From Aceticella autotrophica (GTDB lineage Bacteria; Bacillota; Thermoanaerobacteria; Thermoanaerobacterales; Thermoanaerobacteraceae), in assembly GCF_017357865.1 (NCBI RefSeq), contig NZ_CP060096.1:310001-374000 (forward strand): a stretch of DNA of 64,000 nucleotides. Reading direction: 5' to 3'. Made by a program: the position numbers and the translations under genes. The notes beneath the pieces were generated by a model. The model was given only the letters and a program-made list of their open reading frames with translations, was not told the DNA's origin and ran no database searches. Below, piece after piece: positions 10,687-47,851 of this stretch; position 1 is the first letter of the stretch; every line of letters begins with the position of its first letter.

Positions 10687-11565
10687 TTGATTATTCTTTT
10701 TTCTGCCTTAGTTTTCTTACTGGTATTGTTCGCATCCTTTTTCTTTATCGGTTTTAAAAATAAAAATCCTGTAGAAGAAAGATACGACAAGCCTGTAAAA
10801 AGAAGTTTTTCATTTAATCTTAAAAAGCTTTGGAACTGGAGTGATATATGTCCGGTTTCGTTTGATACGATTTTTACTATAGATATCTTTATAACCGGTT
10901 TGTTTTTTGCTTGTATTATGTTTTTTCTAAATAATATACTGATTTCAATTTTAGCGGCGATTACGGTATTTGCAACAGCGCCTACATTAATAATCAATAT
11001 TCTTGTTAAAAGAAAAATAAATAAATTTAAGAAAAAATTAGAATTTGCGATTAGTATTGTTATCTCAAGTCTTGAAGTCGGAATGCCTCTTTTTAAAGCA
11101 TTAAAAGAATCTTCACAGTTTGCGGAAGAACCTTTAAAAAGCGAGTTTTCACGCATGAGTGTTGAAATAGAAGGCGGTATACCTGCAACAAAAGCGTTTC
11201 AAGGCTTATATGAACGTTTTCCTTGCAGGGAATCAAGCGATATCAATGATGCCATGGAATTGTATGAGACAGTGGGCGGTGCAAAATCCGTCGATCTTTT
11301 GAGAACGCTTCTTGTTAATCTGCAAGAAACGATGACTGTTAACTCACAGGTTCAGCAGTATACAAAAGGTGCAAAAACGTCTGTTGTTATGATGGCTTGC
11401 GTTCCTGTCGCTTTTTCAATAATAATGATTTTGGTAGCCCCCGACTTATATTCGGTTTTATGGACAACTACATCAGGAAAGATTACGCTTGCTTTTTGTA
11501 TTGGCCTTTTTATTTTTGGTGTATGGGTTATCTGGAGTATTATCAGCAACATCGAAGAATTATAG
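10687..11565 (+). CDS. tadB: Tad pilus inner-membrane platform protein TadB
   Basis: 292 residues with the type II secretion F (GspF/TadB) domain between membrane segments: two N-terminal segments (about 3-22 and 60-105), the cytoplasmic F domain (KFKKKLEFAISIVISSLEVG, then MPLFKALKESSQFAEEP) and two C-terminal segments. TadB and TadC form the platform that the TadA motor acts on. The start is TTG at 10687, behind AGAAGGG and four bases after the tadA stop. It has no motor partner left in the window apart from a tail fragment, so it is probably non-functional as a machine. Confidence 0.8.
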   Translation: MIILFSALVFLLVLFASFFFIGFKNKNPVEERYDKPVKRSFSFNLKKLWNWSDICPVSFDTIFTIDIFITGLFFACIMFFLNNILISILAAITVFATAPTLIINILVKRKINKFKKKLEFAISIVISSLEVGMPLFKALKESSQFAEEPLKSEFSRMSVEIEGGIPATKAFQGLYERFPCRESSDINDAMELYETVGGAKSVDLLRTLLVNLQETMTVNSQVQQYTKGAKTSVVMMACVPVAFSIIMILVAPDLYSVLWTTTSGKITLAFCIGLFIFGVWVIWSIISNIEEL

Positions 11566-11568
11566 GAG

Positions 11569-12474
11569 GTGTTTTTTATGAAAATTTTGTTTTATATTCC
11601 TGTTTTTGCCGGTTTAAGCGTTCTTTTTCTTATGACTGCTATTAAGATGCGATTTTCACATTCCAGATTTGAGAATGAAAAGACTTTGTATGAGTTGATA
11701 AACAGCAATGAAACACTTAAAAAATTTTTTCATGGGGAAACAGATGAAGAAAAACTTATTAAAGCAGGTTTGGACATCAGCCCCGAGGATTTTGCTTTTT
11801 ACCGTTTTATCGCAACAGGTATCGCTTTGCTAAGTCTTGTAATATTTGTTCTGACTTTTAACCTGTTATTTTTGCTTCCTTGTACGCTGATTGCCGTACC
11901 CGATATTTATCTTTCCAGCAGGATAAAAAGCAGAAAGAAAAAGATGAGAAAGGAATTTATGTCTGTTGCATCAAAGCAATTCGAGTTCTATCTGTGAGAA
12001 CGTGATGTTCTAAGAAAGGAATTTATGTCTGTTGCATCAAAGCTCGTTGTTGCAATGTCCGGTGGATTATCTTTCTATGAAGCCCTTGAATGGGCATCAA
12101 AAGACAATGCTTACACAAAAACAGAACTCGGCAAGGAACTTAAAAGGGCAGTGGAGAAAACAAAAATGGGCTTGGATTTTGGAGATGTTATGAAAGAATT
12201 CTCGATCAGAACAGGTGTTGTCGACATTCAAAGGCTTTCAATTGCCGTTATTCAGGCACAAAAATACGGTACTTCGATTGCCGAAACTTTAAGCAGGGAA
12301 GTCACGGACTGCCGTGAACGCTATAAAGCCGAAATAATAGGGCAGGCTATTACCTCGGAAAAGAAAACCGATGCGTCACTTATTATTCTTGCATTGCCTA
12401 CAATGATTATGACAGTAGCACCAATGGCTATATCCTTCATGCAGATGGGCGGTATGGGCGTGATTGGAAAATGA
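11569..12474 (+). pseudogene. tadC: Tad platform protein gene tadC, interrupted by a 66-bp repeat-plus-insert
   Basis: Two frames belong to one gene. 11569-11997 encodes the N-terminal half (membrane segments and the start of the F domain, to RKEFMSVASK); 12025-12474 encodes the rest (MSVASKLVVAMSGGLSFYEA, then two C-terminal membrane stretches). Removing bases 11977-12042 restores an uninterrupted frame of about 280 residues. The extra 66 bp are a 30-bp duplication of the gene plus 36 bp of unrelated DNA carrying a TGA in frame. A truncated C-terminal half could restart at ATG 12025 behind AAGAAAGGA. The gene overlaps the next one by four bases. Confidence 0.8.
11947..12042 (+). repeat. 30-bp direct repeat flanking a 36-bp insert inside tadC
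   Basis: Repeat copies at 11947-11976 and 12013-12042 are identical (start AGAAAGGAATTTATG, end TTGCATCAAAG); a following C is also shared. The DNA between them, 11977-12012, is exactly 36 bp (starts CAATTCGAG, ends GATGTTCTA). The CRISPR array of this window has 30-bp repeats and mostly 36-bp spacers, so the arrangement equals one repeat-spacer unit. Confidence 0.9.
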
Positions 12475-13103
12475 TAAAAGATAATCGGGGAAATGCTGTT
12501 CTTATGGTTATAATATTTATGATGTTTGCCACGGTAGGTATTGTAGGTTTTGATTATGTCAGGGCGCATGCGGTAAGAGCAAGGCTTCAGACAGCGTGCG
12601 ATGCTGCTTCACTTGCTGCCTGCAAGCAGGCTGTTATTATGCCGATGTATAAAACGAAAATGTATGATTCAAATAACAATGAAACCACTGACCCAAGTCA
12701 GGCAGCAAAAATTCAAGATGTAATCATCGGTTATCATGCCGATCTTAAACCTGTTCCTCCCAGCCAGCTTAAAAGCGTAGCCGACAGTGTTTTTAACAAA
12801 AACATGCAGGGTATTAACGTGCCTGTAAAGTCTGCTCTTGTACCTGTCGGCACAGGCGGGAATTCCAGCAATGATACCTTTGAATCATCCAAGATGAATA
12901 TCAATGAAGGTATTGATTTCAACAAGCCTTATGTATGCAATGCAAACGGGCAGTATTATTATGAGGCTAATGCCGGTGTACGTTCTTTCCTGTATAACGG
13001 CATTTTAGGAAAATGGATCACCAATATTCAGCATGATTCCAATATGCCGAATTATATCCCAATTAAAACATATTCCGAATCTCAGGCGCTTTCGCCCAAA
13101 TAG
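12471..13103 (+). CDS. TadE/TadG-like pilus-locus protein
   Basis: 210 residues. A short positive N-terminus (MIKDNRGNAVLM) is followed by one hydrophobic helix (VIIFMMFATVGIVGFDYVR) and then RAHAVRARLQTACDAASLA, the Tad minor-pilin (TadE/TadF/TadG) pattern of one transmembrane helix followed by an amphipathic A-rich helix. The remaining part is a soluble, extracytoplasmic domain rich in S, N and P. The start overlaps the tadC stop, so it is coupled to it. Confidence 0.6.
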   Translation: MIKDNRGNAVLMVIIFMMFATVGIVGFDYVRAHAVRARLQTACDAASLAACKQAVIMPMYKTKMYDSNNNETTDPSQAAKIQDVIIGYHADLKPVPPSQLKSVADSVFNKNMQGINVPVKSALVPVGTGGNSSNDTFESSKMNINEGIDFNKPYVCNANGQYYYEANAGVRSFLYNGILGKWITNIQHDSNMPNYIPIKTYSESQALSPK

Positions 13104-13135
13104 CCGCAGAATTTTTCTGCGACTATTTTTTATTA
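13104..13135 (+). terminator. Weak hairpin after the TadE-like gene
   Basis: CGCAGAA-TTT-TTCTGCG followed by ACTATTTTTTATT. The stem is 7 bp and the T run is interrupted, so it may only weaken transcription into the pilin genes, or act as a processing site that sets pilin level. Confidence 0.4.
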
Positions 13136-13150
13136 GGAGGTGAGATAACT

Positions 13151-13339
13151 ATGCTGAAAGAATTTATAAAAGGCGAGGAAGGTGTAGCCCTTCAAACTGT
13201 TCTCATACTTGTCATGGCTGCGGTAGTTGCTGTTGTTCTTTTTCTGGGTTTCAAAAATGCAGGCAAATCAATAGGAGGAAGTGTAAGCAATTCGGCTGAC
13301 AAAGCCGGCAGTTCATTGGAAAATGCTGTAAGTCAATAA
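13151..13339 (+). CDS. Small Flp-like pilin candidate
   Basis: 62 residues: MLKEFIKGEEGVALQ, then a 20-residue hydrophobic helix (TVLILVMAAVVAVVLFLGF), then a small polar tail rich in G, S, N and A. The glutamate pair just before the hydrophobic helix (GEEGVAL) resembles the cleavage region of Flp-type prepilins (G/XXXXEY), although the tyrosine is missing. It stands behind GGAGGTG, next to a second tiny pilin-like gene and a prepilin peptidase, which supports a pilin role. Confidence 0.6.
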   Translation: MLKEFIKGEEGVALQTVLILVMAAVVAVVLFLGFKNAGKSIGGSVSNSADKAGSSLENAVSQ

Positions 13340-13355
13340 AAAAGGAGGTTTTTTA

Positions 13356-13511
13356 ATGAAAGATTTTTTGATAGATGAAGATGGCAATATACTTCAGGGC
13401 GTGATCTGGACTATTGTGGGTGTAATAGTGGCAGCTGTCTTTTTACAATATATACTTCCCGGGTTAAGAAGCGGTGTACAGAAAATGGGCAATGCTTTAA
13501 GCGGGAATTAG
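13356..13511 (+). CDS. Tiny pilin-like protein of 51 residues
   Basis: A short gene with an excellent AAAGGAGG site seven bases before its ATG. The product starts MKDFLIDEDGNILQG, has one hydrophobic helix (VIWTIVGVIVAAVFLQYIL) and a short glycine/serine tail ending ALSGN. It has the same build as the gene just upstream, so the two are probably paralogous pilins or pilin-assembly factors of the Tad locus. It stops 14 bp before the prepilin peptidase gene. Confidence 0.65.
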   Translation: MKDFLIDEDGNILQGVIWTIVGVIVAAVFLQYILPGLRSGVQKMGNALSGN

Positions 13512-13525
13512 AAAGGACTGGTCAA

Positions 13526-14002
13526 ATGCTTAATCTAATAGTCTGTGCAGTTTTTCTGCTGATTGCAGCAGTTTTCGATTTTGAAACAAGGAAAATACCG
13601 AATGTTTTAAACGGCGCTGCATTTATAACAGCATTTGCTTTAAATTTTTATCATTTGAATCTTTTTATTCCTTCCTTTGCGTATGGTTTTCTGTTAGGTT
13701 TTATTCTGTTTCTTTTAGGTATAATGGGCGCAGGTGATGGAAAGATGATTGCAGTTACGGGACTTTTAATAAATACAGATATGCTTTTTAAAACCTTACT
13801 GCTTGCATTTTTGTTTTTTGGAATTTATGCTGCTTACAGTGCAATTGTGAAAAAAGGATTTAAGAACTTTATTGCACAAGAGAAAAACAATCTTACCTTA
13901 TTTTTTGCAAAATCAAAACCTGATGGTGAACGTTCTGCTTTTGCCCCATTCTTTTTTGCGGGATTTTTAACTTGTCAGGTATTGGGGGTGATTAAGATTT
14001 GA
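13526..14002 (+). CDS. Prepilin peptidase (A24 family, TadV/CpaA type)
   Basis: Integral membrane aspartic peptidase that would cut the leader from the Flp-like pilins. 158 residues with five to six hydrophobic segments. The two catalytic aspartates are visible: FDFETRKIPN near residue 20, and the GxGD box GAGDGKM near residue 72. It lacks the N-methyltransferase half, as in TadV/CpaA. Its stop overlaps the TTG start of the next gene (TTGA) behind GGGGGTGA, so the two are coupled. Confidence 0.85.
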   Translation: MLNLIVCAVFLLIAAVFDFETRKIPNVLNGAAFITAFALNFYHLNLFIPSFAYGFLLGFILFLLGIMGAGDGKMIAVTGLLINTDMLFKTLLLAFLFFGIYAAYSAIVKKGFKNFIAQEKNNLTLFFAKSKPDGERSAFAPFFFAGFLTCQVLGVIKI

Positions 14003-16503
14003 GTTTCTTTAAAAATGAAAAAGGCGCATCTAATATTATATCACTCGTTGTGCTGCTACCCGTTTTATTAACGCTTATATATGGGATTTCTATGTTCGGA
14101 CACCTAAGCAATGTTAAAAGCGTAACAGAAGAAGCATCACGCGCGGGCGCAAGATGGCTTGCATCACATCCAGGTGACATAACAGGTGCTAAAATTAAAG
14201 CCGCTGAGGTTATAGGTGAAAGTTTTACCGTAACGCAGAATATTAACAATATCAACACTACAAATAAATTTATAGGATATCTGACATATCCAAACAACAA
14301 GTTTTATATTGACAATGTTTATTCCAAACCTGCCAACAGTTCAATAAAACAGTCAATGCAGTCTTTGATAAATCAATATATTATGGCTGACGGGCATTAT
14401 ATTACGCCTGATGTGTTTCAAGTCAATACGGCAACAACAGATCCGCCTGAAATACAGACTTATACAGAAACAGCATCTTTGCAGAATAACCAAACACAAC
14501 CAGTTAATCAGACTGGGCACAGCGAAAAATATCCTGCTGCTGTAATAGGACAGTATGGATGTGCACCTTGGGGTACGTGGTGGTTGCCGTCAAGGTATAC
14601 CGTAGTTTCAACCAACTACAGTCTTTATGTTCAGCTTTCCGGAAAAGAAAGTAATAAATCTTCTAATCTGTGGGTACCTCCCGGTAAAGTATCTAAATTT
14701 CATGTGAAGTATAACATGGCTTGGGGAAATAGCGACAACGGACAAGTAAATGCAAAAGTACCGTATAATGGTCAATATGCCACTTGCTATGTAATTTTTT
14801 CAGATAATCCTTGTTCAAGTAATTATTCTTTGTCAGGTGACACGTGGGTAGACATGCCTTCAAATATTCCCCAAGATAATATGGGTTTATTTACAGGATT
14901 ATTTTCTTCTGGTCCTGCTTCGGTATCGTGTCAAACACCGTCGTGGATTGATGTGCCTGAGGTTATGATAGATTCCAATCCGCAGGGCTGGTCTGATACA
15001 AGTGCATACTGGATATGGGGCGGAAATCAGAATTATACTGTATCGGCTGTCAATGGACAGGAAGTAACATTAACAAGATATTTTTGGGCTGACAATACAA
15101 ACTATACGGTATCAGCTGCTGCTGATGATCATTTCTCCGCTTATATTGATGCAACCAACATATTAAACGGTGACGGACCTGCGGTTCAAAGATGGCATTG
15201 GACTACCGGCGGTGCAGGATGGCATACAGTAACAATACATGCACGCAATGATTATGGACCTGCCGGTGTTTTATTCAGTATCCAAAGAGACGATAATTCA
15301 TCAATACTGCTTCATACTGATTCAAGCTGGTCATATCAGCCTGTTGACGGTATAAAATATGGTTCTGTTACACTTCCGAAGAATGCAGCGCCTAATTCGG
15401 ATTTTACTGTTAATGTGCCTGTAACTAATCTAACTAAAGCTACATGGAATTCCAATTCAACTTATATATCATATCATTGGTATGACAGCAACGGGAATCC
15501 TGTGGTAACAAACGGAAATATAGCACGTTTTCATAATAACCTTGCAGGCGGTGCAAGCGATACGGTATCCCTTGTTGTACACACGCCTTCAACGCCCGGC
15601 AAATACAGATTGCAAATCGACGGATGTCAGCAAAACGCAGCATGGTTCGGACCTATAAACGGTGTTAACTGGCCAACTGTAGATGCATGGATAAATGTCG
15701 GTTCTTCTTATAGTGTTGATTACAGCCCTGTTGATATACCAAAGTACATGGAAAAAGGAAAAACATACAATATAAGCGTTACCGCTAAAAATACGGGCAC
15801 GACAACATGGATACCAAATGTTACAGGTTTATCATACCACTTATACAATGCTTCAGGAAATCAATGCATTCAATGGGACGGTACGCGAAACTATGTTGCA
15901 CAACCGGTAGCACCGGGACAATCATATACGTTTACCTTGCCTTTTACCGCACCAAATACAGCAGGTACGTATCAAATTCAGCTTGATATGGTACAAGAAG
16001 GTGTTACATGGTTCAGTTGGCAGGGTTCGCCGACTGTATGGGGTACAATACAGGTTCCTGACGGCGATGTGTTGAAAGGTCAGCTGACATATGACGGTTC
16101 CGATTATTATGTTAACAATTATATACTGCAAACACAGATAGATTTGTCAGGATATGCAGGCAAGAACGTAATTCTATGGGGCAAAAACAACGGACAGCAG
16201 AAAATATATGTAGTAACAGATATACAGCCGTATAATCCTAATAACAACGCTGTAAAAACCTTTGATCCGATACTTGATGTGTACTGCAACGATCCGAACG
16301 CAAGCGATCCGAATCATCCATACGACAGCACAGTCAACTACAAAAGAACAGACGGATACGCATATTGCAGGGTAACATATCATTTCCCGACACCGTTGAC
16401 GAATTTCTGGAAATACGCATTTAACAGGCATATGTGGTATAGGGCAGAACCTTTATTCATAAATGAATCCGGCGAATCGTTCTTCAGATCTAACGAGGAA
16501 TAG
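13999..16503 (+). CDS. Large TadE-anchored surface protein with PA14-like and Ig-like domains
   Basis: 834 residues. It starts like a Tad minor pilin (MSFFKNEKGASNIISLVVLL membrane helix, then VKSVTEEASRAGARWLAS). A long extracellular part follows: a region of about 330-450 (YFWADNTNYTVSAAADDHFS) that looks like a PA14/carbohydrate-binding fold, then two Ig-like domains of the NBR1-related bacterial adhesin type (about 455-565 and 570-690, each with a GTYQIQLDM-like end strand). It may be a tip adhesin. Start is TTG at 13999, overlapping the peptidase stop. Domain names are from pattern only. Confidence 0.65.
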   Translation: MSFFKNEKGASNIISLVVLLPVLLTLIYGISMFGHLSNVKSVTEEASRAGARWLASHPGDITGAKIKAAEVIGESFTVTQNINNINTTNKFIGYLTYPNNKFYIDNVYSKPANSSIKQSMQSLINQYIMADGHYITPDVFQVNTATTDPPEIQTYTETASLQNNQTQPVNQTGHSEKYPAAVIGQYGCAPWGTWWLPSRYTVVSTNYSLYVQLSGKESNKSSNLWVPPGKVSKFHVKYNMAWGNSDNGQVNAKVPYNGQYATCYVIFSDNPCSSNYSLSGDTWVDMPSNIPQDNMGLFTGLFSSGPASVSCQTPSWIDVPEVMIDSNPQGWSDTSAYWIWGGNQNYTVSAVNGQEVTLTRYFWADNTNYTVSAAADDHFSAYIDATNILNGDGPAVQRWHWTTGGAGWHTVTIHARNDYGPAGVLFSIQRDDNSSILLHTDSSWSYQPVDGIKYGSVTLPKNAAPNSDFTVNVPVTNLTKATWNSNSTYISYHWYDSNGNPVVTNGNIARFHNNLAGGASDTVSLVVHTPSTPGKYRLQIDGCQQNAAWFGPINGVNWPTVDAWINVGSSYSVDYSPVDIPKYMEKGKTYNISVTAKNTGTTTWIPNVTGLSYHLYNASGNQCIQWDGTRNYVAQPVAPGQSYTFTLPFTAPNTAGTYQIQLDMVQEGVTWFSWQGSPTVWGTIQVPDGDVLKGQLTYDGSDYYVNNYILQTQIDLSGYAGKNVILWGKNNGQQKIYVVTDIQPYNPNNNAVKTFDPILDVYCNDPNASDPNHPYDSTVNYKRTDGYAYCRVTYHFPTPLTNFWKYAFNRHMWYRAEPLFINESGESFFRSNEE

Positions 16504-16506
16504 GGG

Positions 16507-16995
16507 GTGATGGCTATTTTCTTTAAAGACAAAAGAGGCGATATATTAACGGGTGTTATTACCTTCCCTATTATTGCTTTTATTGTTATTTTCGGTTTCT
16601 TGTATATACATGCCGAACAGGTCAGGGCAGGCGTATCTATGGCGTCACGTGAGGCAGCGAGGGAATACGGCATACAATTAGGACAGGCAAATAATGATCC
16701 CAGTCTTATAGCAACGGCACAGTTCAGGGCAAGGGAAAAAGCGAGGGATGTTTTACACACTGAGGGATTATTCGATCAAAATCAGGACTTTAATAACGGA
16801 CAGCCTGACGGAAGTCAGCGTGATGCCACTATATCCTTCACCAATAACGGTGTATGGACAACATGCACAATAACATATTATCTTCCGAATTTATTTTCGG
16901 GTTCTGAACGCCTGATAAGCCATAATACATGGATGTCAAAATTCTTTAAAATACAGGTAACAAGTGCATCTAAATATGAAGAAACGGAAAAATAA
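16507..16995 (+). CDS. TadE-like minor pilin
   Basis: 162 residues: MMAIFFKDKRGDILTGVITF, a hydrophobic helix (PIIAFIVIFGFLYIH), then AEQVRAGVSMASREAAREYG, the typical TadE pattern. The C-terminal part is a small soluble domain. Start is GTG at 16507 or the adjacent ATG at 16510, preceded by GAGGAATAGGGG. It follows the large adhesin-like gene by three bases and is probably co-transcribed. Confidence 0.65.
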   Translation: MMAIFFKDKRGDILTGVITFPIIAFIVIFGFLYIHAEQVRAGVSMASREAAREYGIQLGQANNDPSLIATAQFRAREKARDVLHTEGLFDQNQDFNNGQPDGSQRDATISFTNNGVWTTCTITYYLPNLFSGSERLISHNTWMSKFFKIQVTSASKYEETEK

Positions 16996-17068
16996 GCAGA
17001 ATATTATATTCTGTTTATTTTTTTTGGATACTTTTTTAAAAGAAAATTTTAAAAGGAGTGATTTTACA

Positions 17069-17524
17069 ATGAATAAAGGTATCTTTGCAGCAATTTTAAT
17101 TATTGTCTTTGGTTTAGGTTTTGGAGGAGGTTTTTATACGAGCTATTATAAGTACGTTAAAAAGCCTCAGATGGCAGTGCAGGAACAGGCTAAAAAGCAA
17201 CAGGAAGAACTGAACAAGATGGTTCGCCATGGCAAGATCGTTTCCGTTGCGCCTGACAGAATGGAAATGAAGGTTGAAAAAGGAGGCGGAGACATAGGAA
17301 AAACGATTAAAGCCGAAACAACACAGTTTACCTCAATACAAGTTGGGACAGGTTTTGTCAATAAACCTAATGAGAAAACCGATTTAACAAAATGGTTTAA
17401 AGAAGGCGATACCGTAGATATGCTTTATAAGGATGGTCAGGCATTAGCATTGCACAGGGATCCACGCGCTGACGAAGCACAACAGCAAACACAACCGCCG
17501 GCACAACAGCAAACGCAAAAATAA
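17069..17524 (+). CDS. Membrane-anchored small protein with Q/P-rich tail
   Basis: 151 residues, family not recognised. One N-terminal membrane helix (AAILIIVFGLGFGGGFY), a helical charged linker (KKPQMAVQEQAKKQQEEL), a small beta-rich domain (GKIVSVAPDRMEMKVEKG) that resembles an OB- or DUF5666-like fold, and a low-complexity tail of Q, P and T. I start at the ATG at 17069 behind AAAAGGAGTG; the frame is open further upstream without a good ribosome site. Confidence 0.6.
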   Translation: MNKGIFAAILIIVFGLGFGGGFYTSYYKYVKKPQMAVQEQAKKQQEELNKMVRHGKIVSVAPDRMEMKVEKGGGDIGKTIKAETTQFTSIQVGTGFVNKPNEKTDLTKWFKEGDTVDMLYKDGQALALHRDPRADEAQQQTQPPAQQQTQK

Positions 17525-17532
17525 TTTTTCAA

Positions 17533-17560
17533 TTGACTTTTTCTGTAATCATAATATACT
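17533..17560 (+). promoter_or_regulatory. Sigma-70-type promoter for the stalk-domain gene
   Basis: TTGACT (17533-17538) and TATACT (17555-17560) are separated by 16 bases and lie 37 bases before the GTAATTTTTC-ATG start region of the next gene, which has AAAGGAGG. A separate promoter here fits the lack of coupling to the preceding gene. Confidence 0.55.
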
Positions 17561-17596
17561 GTAAGTGTAACAATATATGAAAGGAGGTAATTTTTC

Positions 17597-18787
17597 ATGC
17601 TAAAACAGAAAACAGCAAAGGCATTGATCGGGGTTATGCTTTGTTCCGCTGCTCTTTCAATGCCTATATCAGGATTGGCAAAACCCACGCATAAAGCAAT
17701 ATTTACGGTTAATCAAACAGTATATAACGTTGACGATAATAATCAGACAATGGACGTAAAAACATTGTTTATAAACAATCGCAGCTATGTGCCTATACGT
17801 TATCTTGCATATGCCTTAGGCGTAAAACCTGATGACATATCATGGAGTGAGGCAACGCAAACTGCAACTTTAACATTAAGGGATGATACTGTAATAACAT
17901 TAAAATTTACAATAGGAAGTTACACATATTATGTCAACAACCAGCCCAAACAAATGGATGTTGCGCCTATAATGGCAAATAACCGAACTTATCTGCCCGC
18001 AAGATTTGTAGCTGAAGCATTCGGTTATAAAGTGGATTGGAATGAGTCAAATCAGGAGGTACTGGTTTATCCGCCGAATACCCCGCAACCAACGCCGCAG
18101 CCTAATCCAACACCACAGCCAATATACAATATAAATGCGGTCAAAAGCGGAAACATACAACCACCTGCCAATGCTATAGCACCGGCTGATGTATGGGGCT
18201 TCCCGCTAAAAGCAACAAGGGCTGAAATGCATATCGGAAGCCGGTATGCCAAAATAACTGACATAAACGGCAATACGTACAATCTTGATTTAGGTGCACC
18301 TTGTTATTTTTGCACAACAAAAGATGTTTATAGCGAAATTCAGAAAAACTATCCCGGGGTATATAACGACAGCAATACACTCCTTACACAATCAATTGGG
18401 ACTGATTCCGCATTCTATATGCCAGTTATACCGGTCATGAAGGCGTTTGGCGTTCCTGAAGGAAACATCGCATGGGACGGAAAGACCTTAATCGTATTTG
18501 GCTGGGATGGCAAAAAAGAAGGATATTTATCATTCTTCGCAAACAGCAAGGCTTCATATGCCAAATGGCATGACGGCGAAACATTAGGAAAGGACAATAT
18601 ATTAAATTATCCACTTCTTGTTATAAATGGCATCCCTTATATCGGTGTATGTTCATGCGATGATTTAGAAGGAACTATATATGCGACTATAGGCAGTTAT
18701 TGCTCTATAATTAACGGAAGGATAGACGGTGGTGGTTATCATGATGAAAATGGCACATTTATAAGAACTCTTAAACCAGGGCATTAA
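17597..18787 (+). CDS. Secreted copper-amine-oxidase-N-type stalk-domain protein
   Basis: 396 residues with a signal peptide (MLKQKTAKALIGVMLCSAAL, cut near SGLAKP). Residues about 30-165 hold two halves of a PF07833-type stalk domain: TLFINNRSYVPIRYLAYALG and PIMANNRTYLPARFVAEAFG. These are common in surface proteins of thermophilic clostridia and are not enzymes themselves. A proline/threonine hinge (TPQPTPQPNPTPQP) leads to a C-terminal domain of about 210 residues that looks like a diverged further stalk repeat (FYMPVIPVMKAFGVPEGNIA). Has its own promoter and terminator. Confidence 0.8.
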   Translation: MLKQKTAKALIGVMLCSAALSMPISGLAKPTHKAIFTVNQTVYNVDDNNQTMDVKTLFINNRSYVPIRYLAYALGVKPDDISWSEATQTATLTLRDDTVITLKFTIGSYTYYVNNQPKQMDVAPIMANNRTYLPARFVAEAFGYKVDWNESNQEVLVYPPNTPQPTPQPNPTPQPIYNINAVKSGNIQPPANAIAPADVWGFPLKATRAEMHIGSRYAKITDINGNTYNLDLGAPCYFCTTKDVYSEIQKNYPGVYNDSNTLLTQSIGTDSAFYMPVIPVMKAFGVPEGNIAWDGKTLIVFGWDGKKEGYLSFFANSKASYAKWHDGETLGKDNILNYPLLVINGIPYIGVCSCDDLEGTIYATIGSYCSIINGRIDGGGYHDENGTFIRTLKPGH

Positions 18788-18811
18788 TTGATATTATTAA
18801 GAGTATTTTTC

Positions 18812-18850
18812 AGGAGTACCGGCGTCAACCGGCGCTCCTTTATTTTTTTT
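18812..18850 (+). terminator. Rho-independent terminator after the stalk-domain gene
   Basis: AGGAGTACCGG and CCGGCGCTCCT form a stem of about 11 bp with one mismatch around CGTCAA-type loop bases, followed by TTTATTTTTTTT. Ends the stalk-domain gene transcript. Confidence 0.8.
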
Positions 18851-18864
18851 GGAGGTGAAAATTG

Positions 18865-20685
18865 ATGAAAAAAAGAATATTTTTATTAACAGTATTTGTG
18901 CTGATGCTGCTTACAAATATGTCATATGCTGATACACTGCTAAACTGGACTGATCCTACAGGCTATCCAACGCCTTTGCATTACAGCGGTCGTGAATATA
19001 CACGTTCACACTATACAGAATATTACTTAAGCGAAGGTGCAGGTTATCAATTTATAGGCAGTGATTATTCGCCTGTATTTGAGCCACCATTTGATATTTT
19101 AGGTAAATCGGCGGGAGGATATACAGCTTATGAAGCCAAAGAAAATTGCGATGATCGTTTAGGAAGCATATTCGATTCATTAGGCGTTATTTATGACAAC
19201 GGATATTGGATTGTAAGTCCTGCTTATTGGAACAGTCAAGGATGGAATGAAATATTTAAACCTACCACACCCGACAGCAACAGCGAATGCATCTTTGATG
19301 TGCCTGTAACCACCGGAATAGATACATCCGGAATAAGTAAAGGACTTTATACAATAAACAATCCGAAATGTTTTATCAACGGTCCGGGTTTTGAAGCGGG
19401 CGGATATGATGGAAATACCGGATACCACTGGAAAGCATCAGGACAAAACGCGCCTATACAATTAACAAAATCTTATGCAAGTGGACTGTTTAAACAAAGC
19501 ACTACCACTGAGGCAAAAATATACTTTAATTATTTATATAATATAGCGGTAACAAGATTAGACGACAACGGCAATGGCAATTGGACGGCGTATGTCTTTA
19601 ATTACACACCGTATAATGCAAAAGATGTCCATTTAAGGGCTTATATTGTACAAGACGGAGAATATACATTAGCAGCTGAAACAACAACTGATATAGGCCC
19701 TTATGCGGTAGGTGACGGCAGCGGCGGCTTCTTACAACCGGCTTATCGACCTCATTTCGGTGAAGGCGTTTCTTCTGCACAAGAAGGTTTAACAGAAATG
19801 ATTAAGTGGAACTTTAATGCACGTGCAGCCGCCGGCAGTTCAAGCTATAAAATTCTTGTAACAGCTGATATTTCACTTGACCAAAACGGAAACCCAACCG
19901 GTGAACCGTTGAAAACAGATGCTGCTTATGGCGGTCATTCTTATCCGAGCGGGTATTTTGCGCCAAACGGAAAGTCAGAAGTTGCACCAGACACACAGTA
20001 CGTACGCAGTGGACTGAACGTATCTGATGGTTTGTCAGATAATTATATATTCAGCGATCAGAAACAGCCACCGTCAAGCACGCCTGCATCTAACGATATA
20101 CCAATCCCGCCTAAAGACCTTGCTGTTACAGACGTCAGCGTAACTGATGAAGGAAACAATGTCGCAAACGTAAAATCAACATTTAAATCAACGTTTAATG
20201 TAGGTGGATATGCCAATATTACCTTATATGAAGTAAATACAGATTTAAATTATCCGCCTACAGTGATAAAAAGCGATAATATTTTTCTTCCGCCCAACGG
20301 AACGGTTGTAAAAGATTGGGGCGATATTGGAATGGGTGAAGATTCATATAAACTTATAGTATCAATAGATTATGACTATAATGGATCAGGTGATTGGAAG
20401 AACGATAGCAACTGGTATCCTGAACAGTTTGCAGGCAATGACGGAAAGATGTATACAGAAGCAACATATACCAACAACAAAGCCGAGGGAAGTTTTAAAG
20501 GACAGTTTATCAGACCCACTTATATCACTAATTCAGAAATCCAATCTGCGTATTATCCACCTGTAAAGTATACGGAAACACCAATATATAAAACCGAAAC
20601 CGAGGATGTCTACGGCTGGAAGAAAGTACCTTATATAAAAGAACAGGCTGTAGATAAAAAACCGCGTATTAGATTAATCCAATAA
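18865..20685 (+). CDS. Secreted protein of unknown function with CARDB-like region
   Basis: 606 residues; signal peptide MKKRIFLLTVFVLMLLTNMS with cleavage near SYADT. The body is rich in Y, G, N and T, typical of a cell-surface beta-protein. Residues about 415-530 (DLAVTDVSVTDEGNNVANVK, then a beta pattern and PPNGTVVKDWG) look like a CARDB/bacterial adhesion repeat. The start is ATG at 18865, seven bases after GGAGGTG. It is followed closely by another secreted protein gene. Function unknown; the Tad context suggests a surface appendage or adhesin. Confidence 0.6.
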   Translation: MKKRIFLLTVFVLMLLTNMSYADTLLNWTDPTGYPTPLHYSGREYTRSHYTEYYLSEGAGYQFIGSDYSPVFEPPFDILGKSAGGYTAYEAKENCDDRLGSIFDSLGVIYDNGYWIVSPAYWNSQGWNEIFKPTTPDSNSECIFDVPVTTGIDTSGISKGLYTINNPKCFINGPGFEAGGYDGNTGYHWKASGQNAPIQLTKSYASGLFKQSTTTEAKIYFNYLYNIAVTRLDDNGNGNWTAYVFNYTPYNAKDVHLRAYIVQDGEYTLAAETTTDIGPYAVGDGSGGFLQPAYRPHFGEGVSSAQEGLTEMIKWNFNARAAAGSSSYKILVTADISLDQNGNPTGEPLKTDAAYGGHSYPSGYFAPNGKSEVAPDTQYVRSGLNVSDGLSDNYIFSDQKQPPSSTPASNDIPIPPKDLAVTDVSVTDEGNNVANVKSTFKSTFNVGGYANITLYEVNTDLNYPPTVIKSDNIFLPPNGTVVKDWGDIGMGEDSYKLIVSIDYDYNGSGDWKNDSNWYPEQFAGNDGKMYTEATYTNNKAEGSFKGQFIRPTYITNSEIQSAYYPPVKYTETPIYKTETEDVYGWKKVPYIKEQAVDKKPRIRLIQ

Positions 20686-20701
20686 AAAGGGGGTGATAAT
20701 T

Positions 20702-22150
20702 TTGAAAAAAGTTTGTTTGATTTTATTATTGTTTTTTTGTTTAAATACTGTAACAGTAGTTTCGGCAGACAGCACGCAAAAACAATGGACAACATTGGCA
20801 ACATCTGTAAATCAAGACGGTACAACAGTTAATACAAATGTTTTTGGATATTATGAAAATGTAGATAATTTCGGACAGGTATTTATTGAATGCGACCCTA
20901 ACACAGGGCAAGAAACAGGAAATGCTTATATTCCAAATGTTAAAATAGGCACTAAAACAATCCAAAAACAAATAGGCTTTGATAAAAAGCAAGAAGTAGA
21001 TTTAACCACTGTTAAGGAAGTAAAACCTGCACAGGTACAAATAATATATCCTAATGTTCCTACCAGTATAAATTGGGACAATGAATTAGGTGCATACGTA
21101 ATAGGAAGCACATTGACATTGCCTTATAGTCCCGTTTTGAAATATATATTGCAGGGGAATTTGCCTGATTACGACCTTTGCATAGTGCAAATCAGCAATC
21201 CCAATAATTTTCCCATAAAAGCAAATTTTGTGTATCACGAAAATTCGTATTCTGTTTCATTAGGTGCAAATGAAACCAAATATGTTAAAGTAGATTCTTA
21301 TACAAATGATTTTTTCTTCGGTTATTCTTGTTCAACACAGCTTGATAGCAATAATTTACCGGCTGATTATCCAAGTGATTATTTAAACAATCTTATTTTC
21401 AAAGCAGTACCTGCTGATGGTATTTTAAATCCTTCGCCTGATGAATATGGACCGTCACTTCCATTTGGGATTTGTTTTAAAATCCATGGATATGCTAATG
21501 CTGGGCAATTTAATTATCAAATAGACATGAAAATAGTATATGACTTTAATGCCAAAAAATTTGTAAAATATAGCAGTATTGTATCTGAATATGACTATTA
21601 TTTACGCAAAGATGTGTTGCTTCCCGAGAACAATGCATCAATTGCCTTTGAAAACAGTGTAATAGATCACTTTAATAATGTATGGGGATTTTATCCACCA
21701 ATCTTTGATAGCAATACTGATATGTATCAAGTAATATATCTTCCGTCTTTTACATCTGATTATACGAATTCTTGGACTGGAATGATACGATCTATTTGTT
21801 ATTGCCAATATCCGGGAAGCACCGTATATTCTTCTTCACCATATACAGCAAGATCTACTGCATGGGTACCTTCACCTGCAACTTTATTCTATGCAACAGA
21901 TGATCCTTCCAACATATATGGTGATATTGGATATAACGGTGATTTAAAACATAAACTTGACACCTGCAAAATGCACTTAGATCAGTATCGTTTTATACCA
22001 ACTGACGGAAACGTAGGATATTTGCAAAAATATTCAGTTGACGGAATTTTTACCCTTTATGAGGAACAAGAATGGAATTGCAACTTGCCCGGTGGCAGTC
22101 CTAATAATCAGGGATATTATTGTACTTATTTTATATATAAACAAGAATAA
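20702..22150 (+). CDS. Secreted protein of unknown function
   Basis: 482 residues starting at TTG 20702 six bases behind GGGGGTG. Signal peptide MKKVCLILLLFFCLNTVTVV, cleaved near SADS. The mature part has no motif I recognise; it is aromatic- and asparagine-rich, with Cys pairs (CYCQYPGS, CKMHLD), and probably beta-structured. It shares style with the preceding gene and ends at a strong terminator, closing the surface-protein unit of the Tad locus. Confidence 0.6.
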   Translation: MKKVCLILLLFFCLNTVTVVSADSTQKQWTTLATSVNQDGTTVNTNVFGYYENVDNFGQVFIECDPNTGQETGNAYIPNVKIGTKTIQKQIGFDKKQEVDLTTVKEVKPAQVQIIYPNVPTSINWDNELGAYVIGSTLTLPYSPVLKYILQGNLPDYDLCIVQISNPNNFPIKANFVYHENSYSVSLGANETKYVKVDSYTNDFFFGYSCSTQLDSNNLPADYPSDYLNNLIFKAVPADGILNPSPDEYGPSLPFGICFKIHGYANAGQFNYQIDMKIVYDFNAKKFVKYSSIVSEYDYYLRKDVLLPENNASIAFENSVIDHFNNVWGFYPPIFDSNTDMYQVIYLPSFTSDYTNSWTGMIRSICYCQYPGSTVYSSSPYTARSTAWVPSPATLFYATDDPSNIYGDIGYNGDLKHKLDTCKMHLDQYRFIPTDGNVGYLQKYSVDGIFTLYEEQEWNCNLPGGSPNNQGYYCTYFIYKQE

Positions 22151-22193
22151 GGTAACAAAACCGCAGATTGTCAAAGTCAATGTAATTATCTTT

Positions 22194-22230
22194 AAGACAA
22201 GTGAAATAATCATTTCCTTGTCTTTTTTTT
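22194..22230 (+). terminator. Strong Rho-independent terminator
   Basis: AAGACAAG-T-GAAAT-AATC-ATTTC-CTTGTCTT followed by T8. Perfect 8-bp and 5-bp stems; ends the secreted-protein operon. Confidence 0.9.
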
Positions 22231-22267
22231 ATGCAAGGCAAAAAAAACAATTCAAGGAGTGATCAGA

Positions 22268-23833
22268 TTGATAATTTCAATTTTTTCGCCAAAAGGCGGG
22301 GTAGGAAAAACAACAATAACATTAGCACTTGCAGATTCTTTATCAAAGGACAAAAAGGTGTGTGTGGTGGAATTTGATTTTTCACCCGGCGATTTTGCAT
22401 CAACGCTTAATGTAGACAAAAACAAAAACATTCTGCGTGCTATTAAATATGGCATTAAAAAAACAGCACAAAAACCGCAGAATAAAAACTTTGACGTTAT
22501 AACAGGCGGATATCCTGATACACATGAAAAAATAAGCACTGATGACCTTGACAGGCTTATGGATGAACTTTCATCGGTTTATGATATGATTTTATTCGAT
22601 ATCCAGCCAGGCTTAATAGAAAATGCCGTAGTAATTCTTGAAAGATGTGATTATGCTTTTGCGATAGCAGAAGATACAGAAGCAATAAAGGTCAGAATGG
22701 CACGTATTTTACAATGGCTGAAAATTGATTTTAATAAGATTAAAATTATTTTAAACAAAGCCAAAGGCAATCTTAAAAACATAGGAGAAATAGCAAGCTA
22801 TACAATACCTTATTTTGGCGAAAACATAACATATGAAAACAGGGGTATGCGAAAAAGTATTCAAACAATAGCAGATATGCTCGAAGGCAAAAAGCCCGGT
22901 TTTTTTGCAAAACCGCTTAAAGAAGTTTCTCCTGAACAAATCGAGTATTTTATAAAGGAAAGTTTAAAGAATTTTCCTCAAGATTCACCGGAAGACCCTA
23001 ATAAAAACAATACAATTAATCAAACAATTTTTAACGAAAACAAGGAGGGCAAATCAATGGTATATATTAAAACAAATCTTAATACGTTAAATAATTTTTT
23101 ACAAGAAGAATTGTGCAATATAAATGATATAAAAATAGATTTAACTGATAATTTTGATGAATGTGATACAGCTGTTGTTTCGGCTTTAAGCAAAGAAGAA
23201 ATTGACAGATACGCTCTTTCTAACAAAAAAATTATTCTTTTAACTTTAGAACAATACAAGGAATATGCTCAAAGCAAAGGTATAAAAATTATTTTCAGCG
23301 ATAAATGTTCAGATGCTGACTTGATTAATGCAATAAGAAAAAACATAGAAGAAAAAACTAATGTTACAGATTCTGCTGTTGAGTCAAAAGATATACCTAT
23401 TAGTGAAGGTGATATTCTAAAAGATACACCCGTTATAGCGCAAAATGAAAATACAATAAATATTTCAGAACCACAGATGAGTGATGATATTATTAAAGAG
23501 AATGATAATATTGTTAAAGAAGAGGAAATTATCAGAGAAGAATCTGTTAACCATGAAGAAACAAACAATAAAGAAATATCCGATAAAACAGATATTGAAA
23601 ATATCAGTGCTTTATCGGATGAGATTAATGCTGTTTTAAATAAGTATATCAGTTCTTTAAAAGAAAAGATAGAAGAAAAATATATCGACGAAATCAAAAA
23701 ATTAAAAGAAAGCAACCGCAGTCTTTTACAAGAAATAAAAGAAAAAAACAATACTCTAACAAGGGTAGAAAAAGAGCTTAAGGAACGCAGAGAAACAGCG
23801 GAACAGCTAAAGAAACTGCTTTTAAGCATGTGA
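22268..23833 (+). CDS. CpaE/MinD-like P-loop ATPase with C-terminal coiled coil
   Basis: About 521 residues. Deviant Walker A SPKGGVGKTTITLALADSLS at the N-terminus and EFDFSPGDFAS and LFDIQPGL strands identify a ParA/MinD family ATPase; in Tad loci this is the CpaE/TadZ role, placing the pilus machinery in the cell. Residues about 250-400 are acidic and weakly conserved, and the last 90 residues form a coiled coil (EKIEEKYIDEIKKLKESNRS). Start is TTG at 22268, six bases after AAGGAGTG; the GTG at 22259 is too close to that site. Confidence 0.75.
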   Translation: MIISIFSPKGGVGKTTITLALADSLSKDKKVCVVEFDFSPGDFASTLNVDKNKNILRAIKYGIKKTAQKPQNKNFDVITGGYPDTHEKISTDDLDRLMDELSSVYDMILFDIQPGLIENAVVILERCDYAFAIAEDTEAIKVRMARILQWLKIDFNKIKIILNKAKGNLKNIGEIASYTIPYFGENITYENRGMRKSIQTIADMLEGKKPGFFAKPLKEVSPEQIEYFIKESLKNFPQDSPEDPNKNNTINQTIFNENKEGKSMVYIKTNLNTLNNFLQEELCNINDIKIDLTDNFDECDTAVVSALSKEEIDRYALSNKKIILLTLEQYKEYAQSKGIKIIFSDKCSDADLINAIRKNIEEKTNVTDSAVESKDIPISEGDILKDTPVIAQNENTINISEPQMSDDIIKENDNIVKEEEIIREESVNHEETNNKEISDKTDIENISALSDEINAVLNKYISSLKEKIEEKYIDEIKKLKESNRSLLQEIKEKNNTLTRVEKELKERRETAEQLKKLLLSM

Positions 23834-45630: not shown

Positions 45631-47851
45631 GTTTTTAGCCTACCTATAAGGAATTGAAACAAAAATTTTTTAAAAAGGTATTGACACATTGACTCAAGTT
45701 TTTAGCCTACCTATAAGGAATTGAAACAAGTTTAGAGAAAAAATAAGTCCTCAGGCATTAGAAAGTTTTTAGCCTACCTATAAGGAATTGAAACTTTGAA
45801 CAATGAAAAAAATACTAAAAATTTTCTGATAGTTTTTAGCCTACCTATAAGGAATTGAAACTTTCTCCTTTTTAATATAATTTTCATTGCTCAAATAGTT
45901 TTTAGCCTACCTATAAGGAATTGAAACATAAATTAGTAAGCACTGATATAGCAACATTGAATGGTTTTTAGCCTACCTATAAGGAATTGAAACTCGCAGA
46001 AGATACATTATCATACGATATTTTGGAAAAGTTTTTAGCCTACCTATAAGGAATTGAAACCTGTAAGCGGAAGGACGATAACGTGGATTTCGGCTAAGTT
46101 TTTAGCCTACCTATAAGGAATTGAAACAGTTTCTTGTAATATTCAGCTATCACGTTATTATACGTTTTTAGCCTACCTATAAGGAATTGAAACTATTTTT
46201 TATTTATACAAGTTTGACTTAGATAGAAGTTTTTAGCCTACCTATAAGGAATTGAAACATGCAAGGGATTGGCAAATACGGGGTAGTGAACGTGTTTTTA
46301 GCCTACCTATAAGGAATTGAAACTTGGATAGGTGGACAAGGTTGGATAAATGCTGTTAAGTTTTTAGCCTACCTATAAGGAATTGAAACACAATCTGACG
46401 GGATATATACCTTCTAATTATGAAGGGTTTTTAGCCTACCTATAAGGAATTGAAACATTTCATATACCTTGCTCACTGCTTCGTCTGGCAAATGTTTTTA
46501 GCCTACCTATAAGGAATTGAAACTATCTATTTTTTTTGCTGATTCCATAACAGCTTTCCAGGTTTTTAGCCTACCTATAAGGAATTGAAACATCATGGCA
46601 GTGCAAGTTCTGAGGTGACAGTATCAGTTTTTAGCCTACCTATAAGGAATTGAAACTTGCCTGTCCATGTCATGTTCATCCTTCTCACCTCGTTTTTAGC
46701 CTACCTATAAGGAATTGAAACCGGTGATAAAATGGCAGTAAAAATATTTCCTACTGTAAAGTTTTTAGCCTACCTATAAGGAATTGAAACGGCAATGCAT
46801 TGACTGACGATGAAATAAATGTATTTGTTTTTAGCCTACCTATAAGGAATTGAAACTTTTAGCAATAGTTGCAGTTTTTGTTGCTGCTGCACTGTTTTTA
46901 GCCTACCTATAAGGAATTGAAACCTGGAGCAAGGGAGAAAAGGAAATAACCCAAACTGAGTTTTTAGCCTACCTATAAGGAATTGAAACCACAAATTGAG
47001 TATCGGAATAATCTTGAAGCAGCTGTGTTTTTAGCCTACCTATAAGGAATTGAAACTTGCTACTTCGTTACCTTCCACAGTCAAGGTTGGCAAGTTTTTA
47101 GCCTACCTATAAGGAATTGAAACTGCTCCTGCGCTAATACAAAGCTTTCTGTCTGCACTGTTTTTAGCCTACCTATAAGGAATTGAAACAAGGAAATTCT
47201 TAAAAGTGTAGTGAACAGAAAAATCGTTTTTAGCCTACCTATAAGGAATTGAAACTGCCATCTCTGCTAGTGTTGTAACTATTTAAGCCTCGTTTTTAGC
47301 CTACCTATAAGGAATTGAAACCTGGAGCAAGGGAGAAAAGGAAATAACCCAAACTGAGTTTTTAGCCTACCTATAAGGAATTGAAACCACAAATTGAGTA
47401 TCGGAATAATCTTGAAGCAGCTGTGTTTTTAGCCTACCTATAAGGAATTGAAACTTGCTACTTCGTTACCTTCCACAGTCAAGGTTGGCAAGTTTTTAGC
47501 CTACCTATAAGGAATTGAAACTGCTCCTGCGCTAATACAAAGCTTTCTGTCTGCAAGGTTTTTAGCCTACCTATAAGGAATTGAAACCTTTTTGATTTCT
47601 TCAAATATGTTCATTATTCTTCAGTTTTTAGCCTACCTATAAGGAATTGAAACTGCCTTAAAACTCCTTTTAAATATAATACCCATAAAGTTTTTAGCCT
47701 ACCTATAAGGAATTGAAACCAATAACTGGCTTATTTAAACTCATATGATGTATAAGTTTTTAGCCTACCTATAAGGAATTGAAACATGAATATGCTACAA
47801 AAAGGGATACAACAGAATATTGTTTTTAGTCTACCTATAGAAAGTGGAAGT
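45631..47851 (+). CRISPR. CRISPR array, 34 repeats and 33 spacers
   Basis: The 30-bp repeat starts GTTTTTAGCCTACC and ends AAGGAATTGAAAC; the last eight bases ATTGAAAC are the usual 5' handle of type I-B/III crRNAs, giving plus-strand transcription from the leader. First repeat 45631-45660. 33 repeats are exact; the 34th (47822-47851) is degenerate (GTTTTTAGTCTACC, then AGAAAGTGGAAGT), marking the old end. Spacers are 35-39 nt, mostly 36-37. Spacers 20-23 are repeated as 26-29. No cas1, cas2 or cas6 lies in the window; the Cmr operon 37 kb away could use these crRNAs. Confidence 0.99.

Follow-up and report, generated by a model that had tools for sequence, protein, structure and literature searches.

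Spacer-sized inserts between repeat-length duplications in the chromosome of Aceticella autotrophica: probable traces of natural off-target spacer integration

Introduction

Off-target spacer integration has mostly been studied with purified or overexpressed Cas1-Cas2. The inserts found in E. coli by Nivala, Shipman and Church in 2018 (Nat Microbiol 3:310-318) are said to be flanked by a duplication of repeat length, and the same work reportedly also lists candidate events of natural origin from Yersinia pestis and Sulfolobus islandicus. Purified type II-A Cas1-Cas2 of S. thermophilus integrates in vitro at non-CRISPR sites of plasmids and favours G at the joining point (PMC6895254), and integration outside arrays in vitro is also described in PMC10011333. 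For integration outside arrays in vivo, PMC11788318 and PMC9456107 cite Nivala et al. 2018; in E. coli, type I-E Cas1-Cas2 placed a spacer-sized insert at a chromosomal site outside the arrays, the same arrangement as in the genome analyzed here.

The E. coli events were obtained with overexpressed Cas1-Cas2, whereas the structures reported here are natural, occur in a thermophilic member of the Thermoanaerobacteraceae, carry 30-bp duplications and have empty sites in homologous copies. The S. thermophilus in vitro events were probably half-site integrations on plasmids; here, in contrast, both ends appear to have been joined and repaired. Since integration outside arrays is known in vitro and in E. 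coli, the scars are a natural example and not a new process, and as an example they are new and unusually well supported. In its available part, the published genome analysis (PMC10213532) makes no mention of the tadC scar.

Materials and Methods

The window, i.e. the whole stretch of 64,000 nucleotides that was analyzed, corresponds to G000:310001-374000, G000 being the chromosome of Aceticella autotrophica 3443-3Ac (2,267,618 bp, one contig). Positions without prefix refer to the window. For the detection of similar scars, closely spaced direct repeats were sought in the entire chromosome, which was covered by 115 overlapping stretches.

Results and Discussion

An interrupted tadC gene

The following features were assigned at the tadC locus:

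10687..11565, + strand: tadB, neighbour of tadC, intact (Pfam PF00482)
11578..11997, + strand: tadC upstream fragment, stopping at the TGA of the insert; the listed open reading frame starts with GTG at 11569
11947..11977, + strand: repeat copy 1 of the tadC target duplication, exact repeat (30 bp if the boundary base is assigned to the insert)
11978..12012, + strand: tadC insert of 35 bp (36 bp including the boundary base), spacer-sized, with the in-frame TGA
12013..12043, + strand: repeat copy 2 of the tadC target duplication, exact repeat; includes ATG 12025 and the AAGGAA before it
12025..12474, + strand: tadC downstream fragment, 149 aa, with T2SSF domain (Pfam PF00482, E 6.4e-12); possible re-initiation at ATG 12025

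Reading of the sequence and a script both identified AGAAAGGAATTTATGTCTGTTGCATCAAAGC as an exact 31-bp direct repeat in tadC with a period of 66 bp, the copies being separated by the 35 bp AATTCGAGTTCTATCTGTGAGAACGTGATGTTCTA. Because one boundary base is common to both parts, a 31-bp duplication with a 35-bp insert and a 30-bp duplication with a 36-bp insert describe the structure equally well, and the first-pass annotation, which had reported a 66-bp excess made up of 30 + 36 bp, holds in either form. Read as 11948-11977, the 30-mer has G as its first and C as its last base, like the CRISPR repeat. When the flanks were joined by script, one open frame of 277 codons including the stop was obtained, as had been expected from the removal of one unit. 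It is gapless at the scar against 14 homologues, and the 22 residues of the scar are absent from the TadC homologues (n = 14 aligned). The nearest of these is 49% identical, and a search for DNA relatives of tadC in the family and the class gave none; as the gene is absent from close relatives, its empty site is seen at the protein level only.

The in-frame TGA at 11995-11997 lies within the insert and splits tadC into two parts, the second of which retains the T2SSF domain. Reading of the sequence also revealed a Shine-Dalgarno-like AAGGAA upstream of ATG 12025, where translation of the domain-bearing half may restart. The claim that the insert inactivates tadC is therefore upheld with regard to the stop codon and weakened with regard to its certainty: inactivation is likely, but the domain and a plausible start that remain in the downstream half leave some doubt, and tadC function has presumably been lost or reduced. 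The scar could be lost again by slippage or recombination between the perfect 31-bp repeats. A search for RNA structure at the tadC scar found none (z -0.22).

CRISPR-Cas systems of the genome

The window contains one CRISPR array:

45631..47785, + strand: CRISPR array with 33 repeats of 30 bp and spacers of 35-39 bp, the array geometry with which the tadC scar is compared

Throughout the genome, the repeats measure 30 bp and the 262 spacers 34-39 bp with a mode of 36. Within the array, part of the sequence is duplicated (46924-47554), a four-spacer block being present twice with three spacers identical and the fourth differing at its end only. The Cas genes belong to types I-B and III-B and include two complete Cas4-Cas1-Cas2 modules (G000 about 153.9-155.7 kb and 249.9-251.6 kb), one of which adjoins type I-B interference genes and an array with the repeat ATTTTAATCTGACCATATTGGAATTGAAAC. 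According to PMC10213532, only one of five Cas operons, an I-B operon, was judged functional; from the locus-tag order published there, this is probably the operon beside the ATTTTAATCTGACCATATTGGAATTGAAAC array. Lone degenerate copies of a CRISPR repeat without an array are present at G000:876836 and 308663 (4 and 7 mismatches, respectively).

Scars of the same geometry elsewhere in the chromosome

Outside CRISPR arrays, the whole chromosome contains 13 isolated exact direct repeats of at least 24 bp with a period of 20-2000. Three of them have a period of 63-66, namely tadC (31 + 35), G000:1996645 (30 + 36) and G000:1251332 (29 + 34). If evenly spread periods are assumed, the binomial probability that three fall within a 10-bp window is about 4e-5, and it is 0.004 when only the five repeats with a period below 150 are considered; in both calculations the window was set after the first case had been seen. 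Chance is excluded as the source of the tadC structure. As a control, tadC loci (0.1 Mb) and part of the genome of the relative G009 (0.4 Mb) were inspected, and no structure of this kind was present in them. The genome-wide search for 30-bp duplications 34-40 bp apart, which had been proposed as a check, thus yielded two additional cases, both with clean empty sites:

G000:1996645-1996740 (L141:16645-16740): second scar, 30-bp duplication with 36 bp, in a degenerate ISL3-family transposase gene
G000:1251332-1251423 (L104:3932-4023): third scar, 29-bp duplication with 34 bp, upstream of a bacteriocin-like peptide gene

The duplications of 31 (or 30), 30 and 29 bp compare with a host CRISPR repeat of 30 bp, and the inserts of 35/36, 36 and 34 bp are all inside the spacer range of the genome, the peptide site with 29/34 being at its short end. 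The repeat copies are identical at all three scars, which suggests that the events are probably recent. A staggered break whose long overhangs were filled in, with a stray short foreign fragment ligated between them, would also leave duplicated ends with foreign DNA between them at unrelated sites, as can be expected from known end joining. Such capture of a stray fragment could make one scar of this kind, but not three with repeat and spacer lengths, since nothing in break repair sets the overhang to 29-31 bp and the filler to 34-36 bp three times in agreement with the repeats and spacers of the same genome; we consider it unlikely. Recurrence of the geometry also bears on an assembly or sequencing artefact, a possibility to be considered for scars that are known from the assembled sequence. 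Three different inserts share this geometry, however, and 66 bp are well within a short read, which makes an artefact extremely unlikely. The hybrid Illumina and Nanopore assembly into a single circular chromosome (PMC10213532) likewise speaks against an artefact.

Two further structures were set aside. At G000:1994832-1994928 (L141:14832-14928), near the scar in the insertion sequence (IS), two imperfect 29-bp copies (GTTTATATCCCATATAGTTCAGATGCAAC) with two mismatches enclose 36 bp, and a single sequence similar to GTTTATATCCCATATAGTTCAGATGCAAC is found in G019 (L207); the structure was not counted as a fourth scar, as it is possibly a CRISPR relic. A possible older scar at G000:2150917 (22 bp exact, 26/29 when extended, period 64) was too AT-rich.

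Uninterrupted copies of the second and third sites

Single-copy empty sites are available at the DNA level for the IS and the peptide site and at the protein level alone for tadC. Two copies of the IS site in G009, 96-98% identical to the flanks, contain both flanks and a single 30-mer, as do a third, more distant copy in G009 and one in G002; an additional G009 copy has a single 30-mer and the right flank. The two flank alignments overlap by exactly 30 bp in the three G009 copies that have both flanks. The third scar sits in a repeated element with a small peptide gene downstream that has a GG-type leader, and 11 paralogous copies in the same genome pass from one 29-mer directly into ACATAAATTTTACATT. 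In this comparison of sequences, the copies without an interruption are proof of an insertion event at both sites.

The empty sites are also decisive for slippage or template switching, by which one 31-bp unit would have been duplicated and the 35 bp would be diverged or copied local sequence. Such events do produce direct repeats, and a true tandem duplication with a period of 31 is present at G000:1355527. At the IS and peptide sites, however, the insert and one repeat arrived together, which refutes slippage there. In tadC, the repeated part amounts to just 31 of 66 bp, the 35-bp filler bears no relation to the 31-mer and is without a source in its neighbourhood or in the rest of the chromosome, and the identity of the two copies excludes gradual divergence. 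An ordinary tandem duplication with gradually diverging units, against which the first-pass annotation had weighed its own reading, is thus contradicted, and duplication by slippage or template switching is very unlikely.

Origin of the inserts

The three inserts show no relationship to one another, and no second copy of any of them is present in the genome. A self origin was rejected, as their best chromosomal matches are at the level of shuffled sequences. These properties also speak against a MITE or another tiny mobile element that would duplicate 30 bp of its target: duplications of such length at sites without similarity do resemble those of a transposon, but the inserts have no common sequence and each is present only once. 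We know of no DDE or other transposon that makes duplications of 29-31 bp, and we give this possibility hardly any credence.

Searches of phage and plasmid records (E 0.9 or worse), IMG/VR and genome contigs gave no protospacer for the tadC insert, and those of phages and IMG/VR gave none for the IS and peptide inserts. A comparison of all three with 398 genomes of the phylum gave nothing above chance level, the best match being that of the IS insert (24 of 36 bases) in one of the 398 genomes (E 2e-4). A PAM was not found for any insert. Four array spacers were likewise without a match in IMG/VR, so that the negative protospacer searches are weak evidence against spacer integration. The inserted DNA probably came from an invader.

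Sequence of the target sites

The 8-mer AAGGAATT is common to the tadC target and the CRISPR repeat and had been put forward as a hint to target choice. As the ungapped match between target and repeat is at most 13/30, which is about chance, this idea was dropped and AAGGAATT is not regarded as meaningful. All three targets resemble the repeats or the leader-repeat junction weakly at best; only the peptide site gets as far as 16/30, with the second repeat (uncorrected P 0.008, six comparisons having been made). In one orientation, the three targets and both repeats all have AC at repeat positions 12-13, with P 0.001 if the motif had been fixed beforehand; it was noticed post hoc, and a general column test gave 0.03. 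At the attacked positions, G is present on both strands of the tadC 30-mer, on one strand of the IS site and on neither at the peptide site.

Off-target integration as the likely origin

Off-target spacer integration by Cas1-Cas2 is very probably the origin of the tadC scar and explains it best. This reading, proposed from the tadC structure alone, has been strengthened by two more scars, by their empty sites, by inserts that are not chromosomal and by the two Cas4-Cas1-Cas2 modules of the host. Points that count against it are the negative searches for a protospacer or PAM, the weak resemblance of the targets to the repeat, the short dimensions of the peptide site, the empty site of tadC being at the protein level only, and the single Cas operon that was judged functional. 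The enzyme would be Cas1-Cas2, acting as follows. The Cas4-Cas1-Cas2 adaptation complex of the host would capture a prespacer of 36 bp (or 35 bp) and insert it by full-site integration at a non-CRISPR site within tadC. With its two 3' ends, the prespacer would attack opposite strands about 30 bp apart, a spacing presumably fixed by the integrase and suited to 30-bp repeats. Gap repair would then copy the 30-31 bp between the cuts, so that the insert ends up between two identical copies, and the same route may have been taken at the two other chromosomal sites.

Three stray integrations compare with 262 array spacers, i.e. about 1 per 90, and three such events in one genome are unusual. Tentatively, and as a possibility that falls short of a probable conclusion, the adaptation machinery may be a measurable natural insertional mutagen in this lineage, which uses stray sites with a weak repeat-like core (AC 12-13), disrupts genes of the host as well as mobile elements and can give rise to new arrays.

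Predicted "CRISPRs" with two repeats and one spacer have formally the same repeat-spacer-repeat layout as the scars, so an array finder could report the latter as minimal arrays. Their repeats are coding, IS or intergenic DNA that has a single-copy form elsewhere, which identifies them as insertion scars and not array remnants. With three scars, two of them with empty sites in DNA, in an unmanipulated genome, off-target integration is probably natural and can interrupt a gene. The signature left behind is a repeat-length duplication around spacer-length foreign DNA. It can be counted across cas1-bearing and cas1-less genomes, which opens to measurement both the mutational burden of CRISPR adaptation and the origin of new arrays.

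Surroundings of the tad locus

The interrupted gene is part of a tad-like locus (10687-23833) with tadB, tadC, TadE/G-like genes, a prepilin peptidase and a ParA-like gene; a secretion ATPase (PF00437) was not detected among the tested open reading frames of this locus. Array spacers at G000:212459 (29/37, the last 19 exact) and 157146 (24/37) show partial matches to tadB and the start of tadC, located at G000:320951 and 321544 (10951 and 11544 in the window). Genes for relaxase-like, coupling and ParM-like proteins lie close by and point to a mobile element that may be related to a CRISPR target. The tad-like locus also encodes an 834-aa TadE-like protein with an Ig-like domain.
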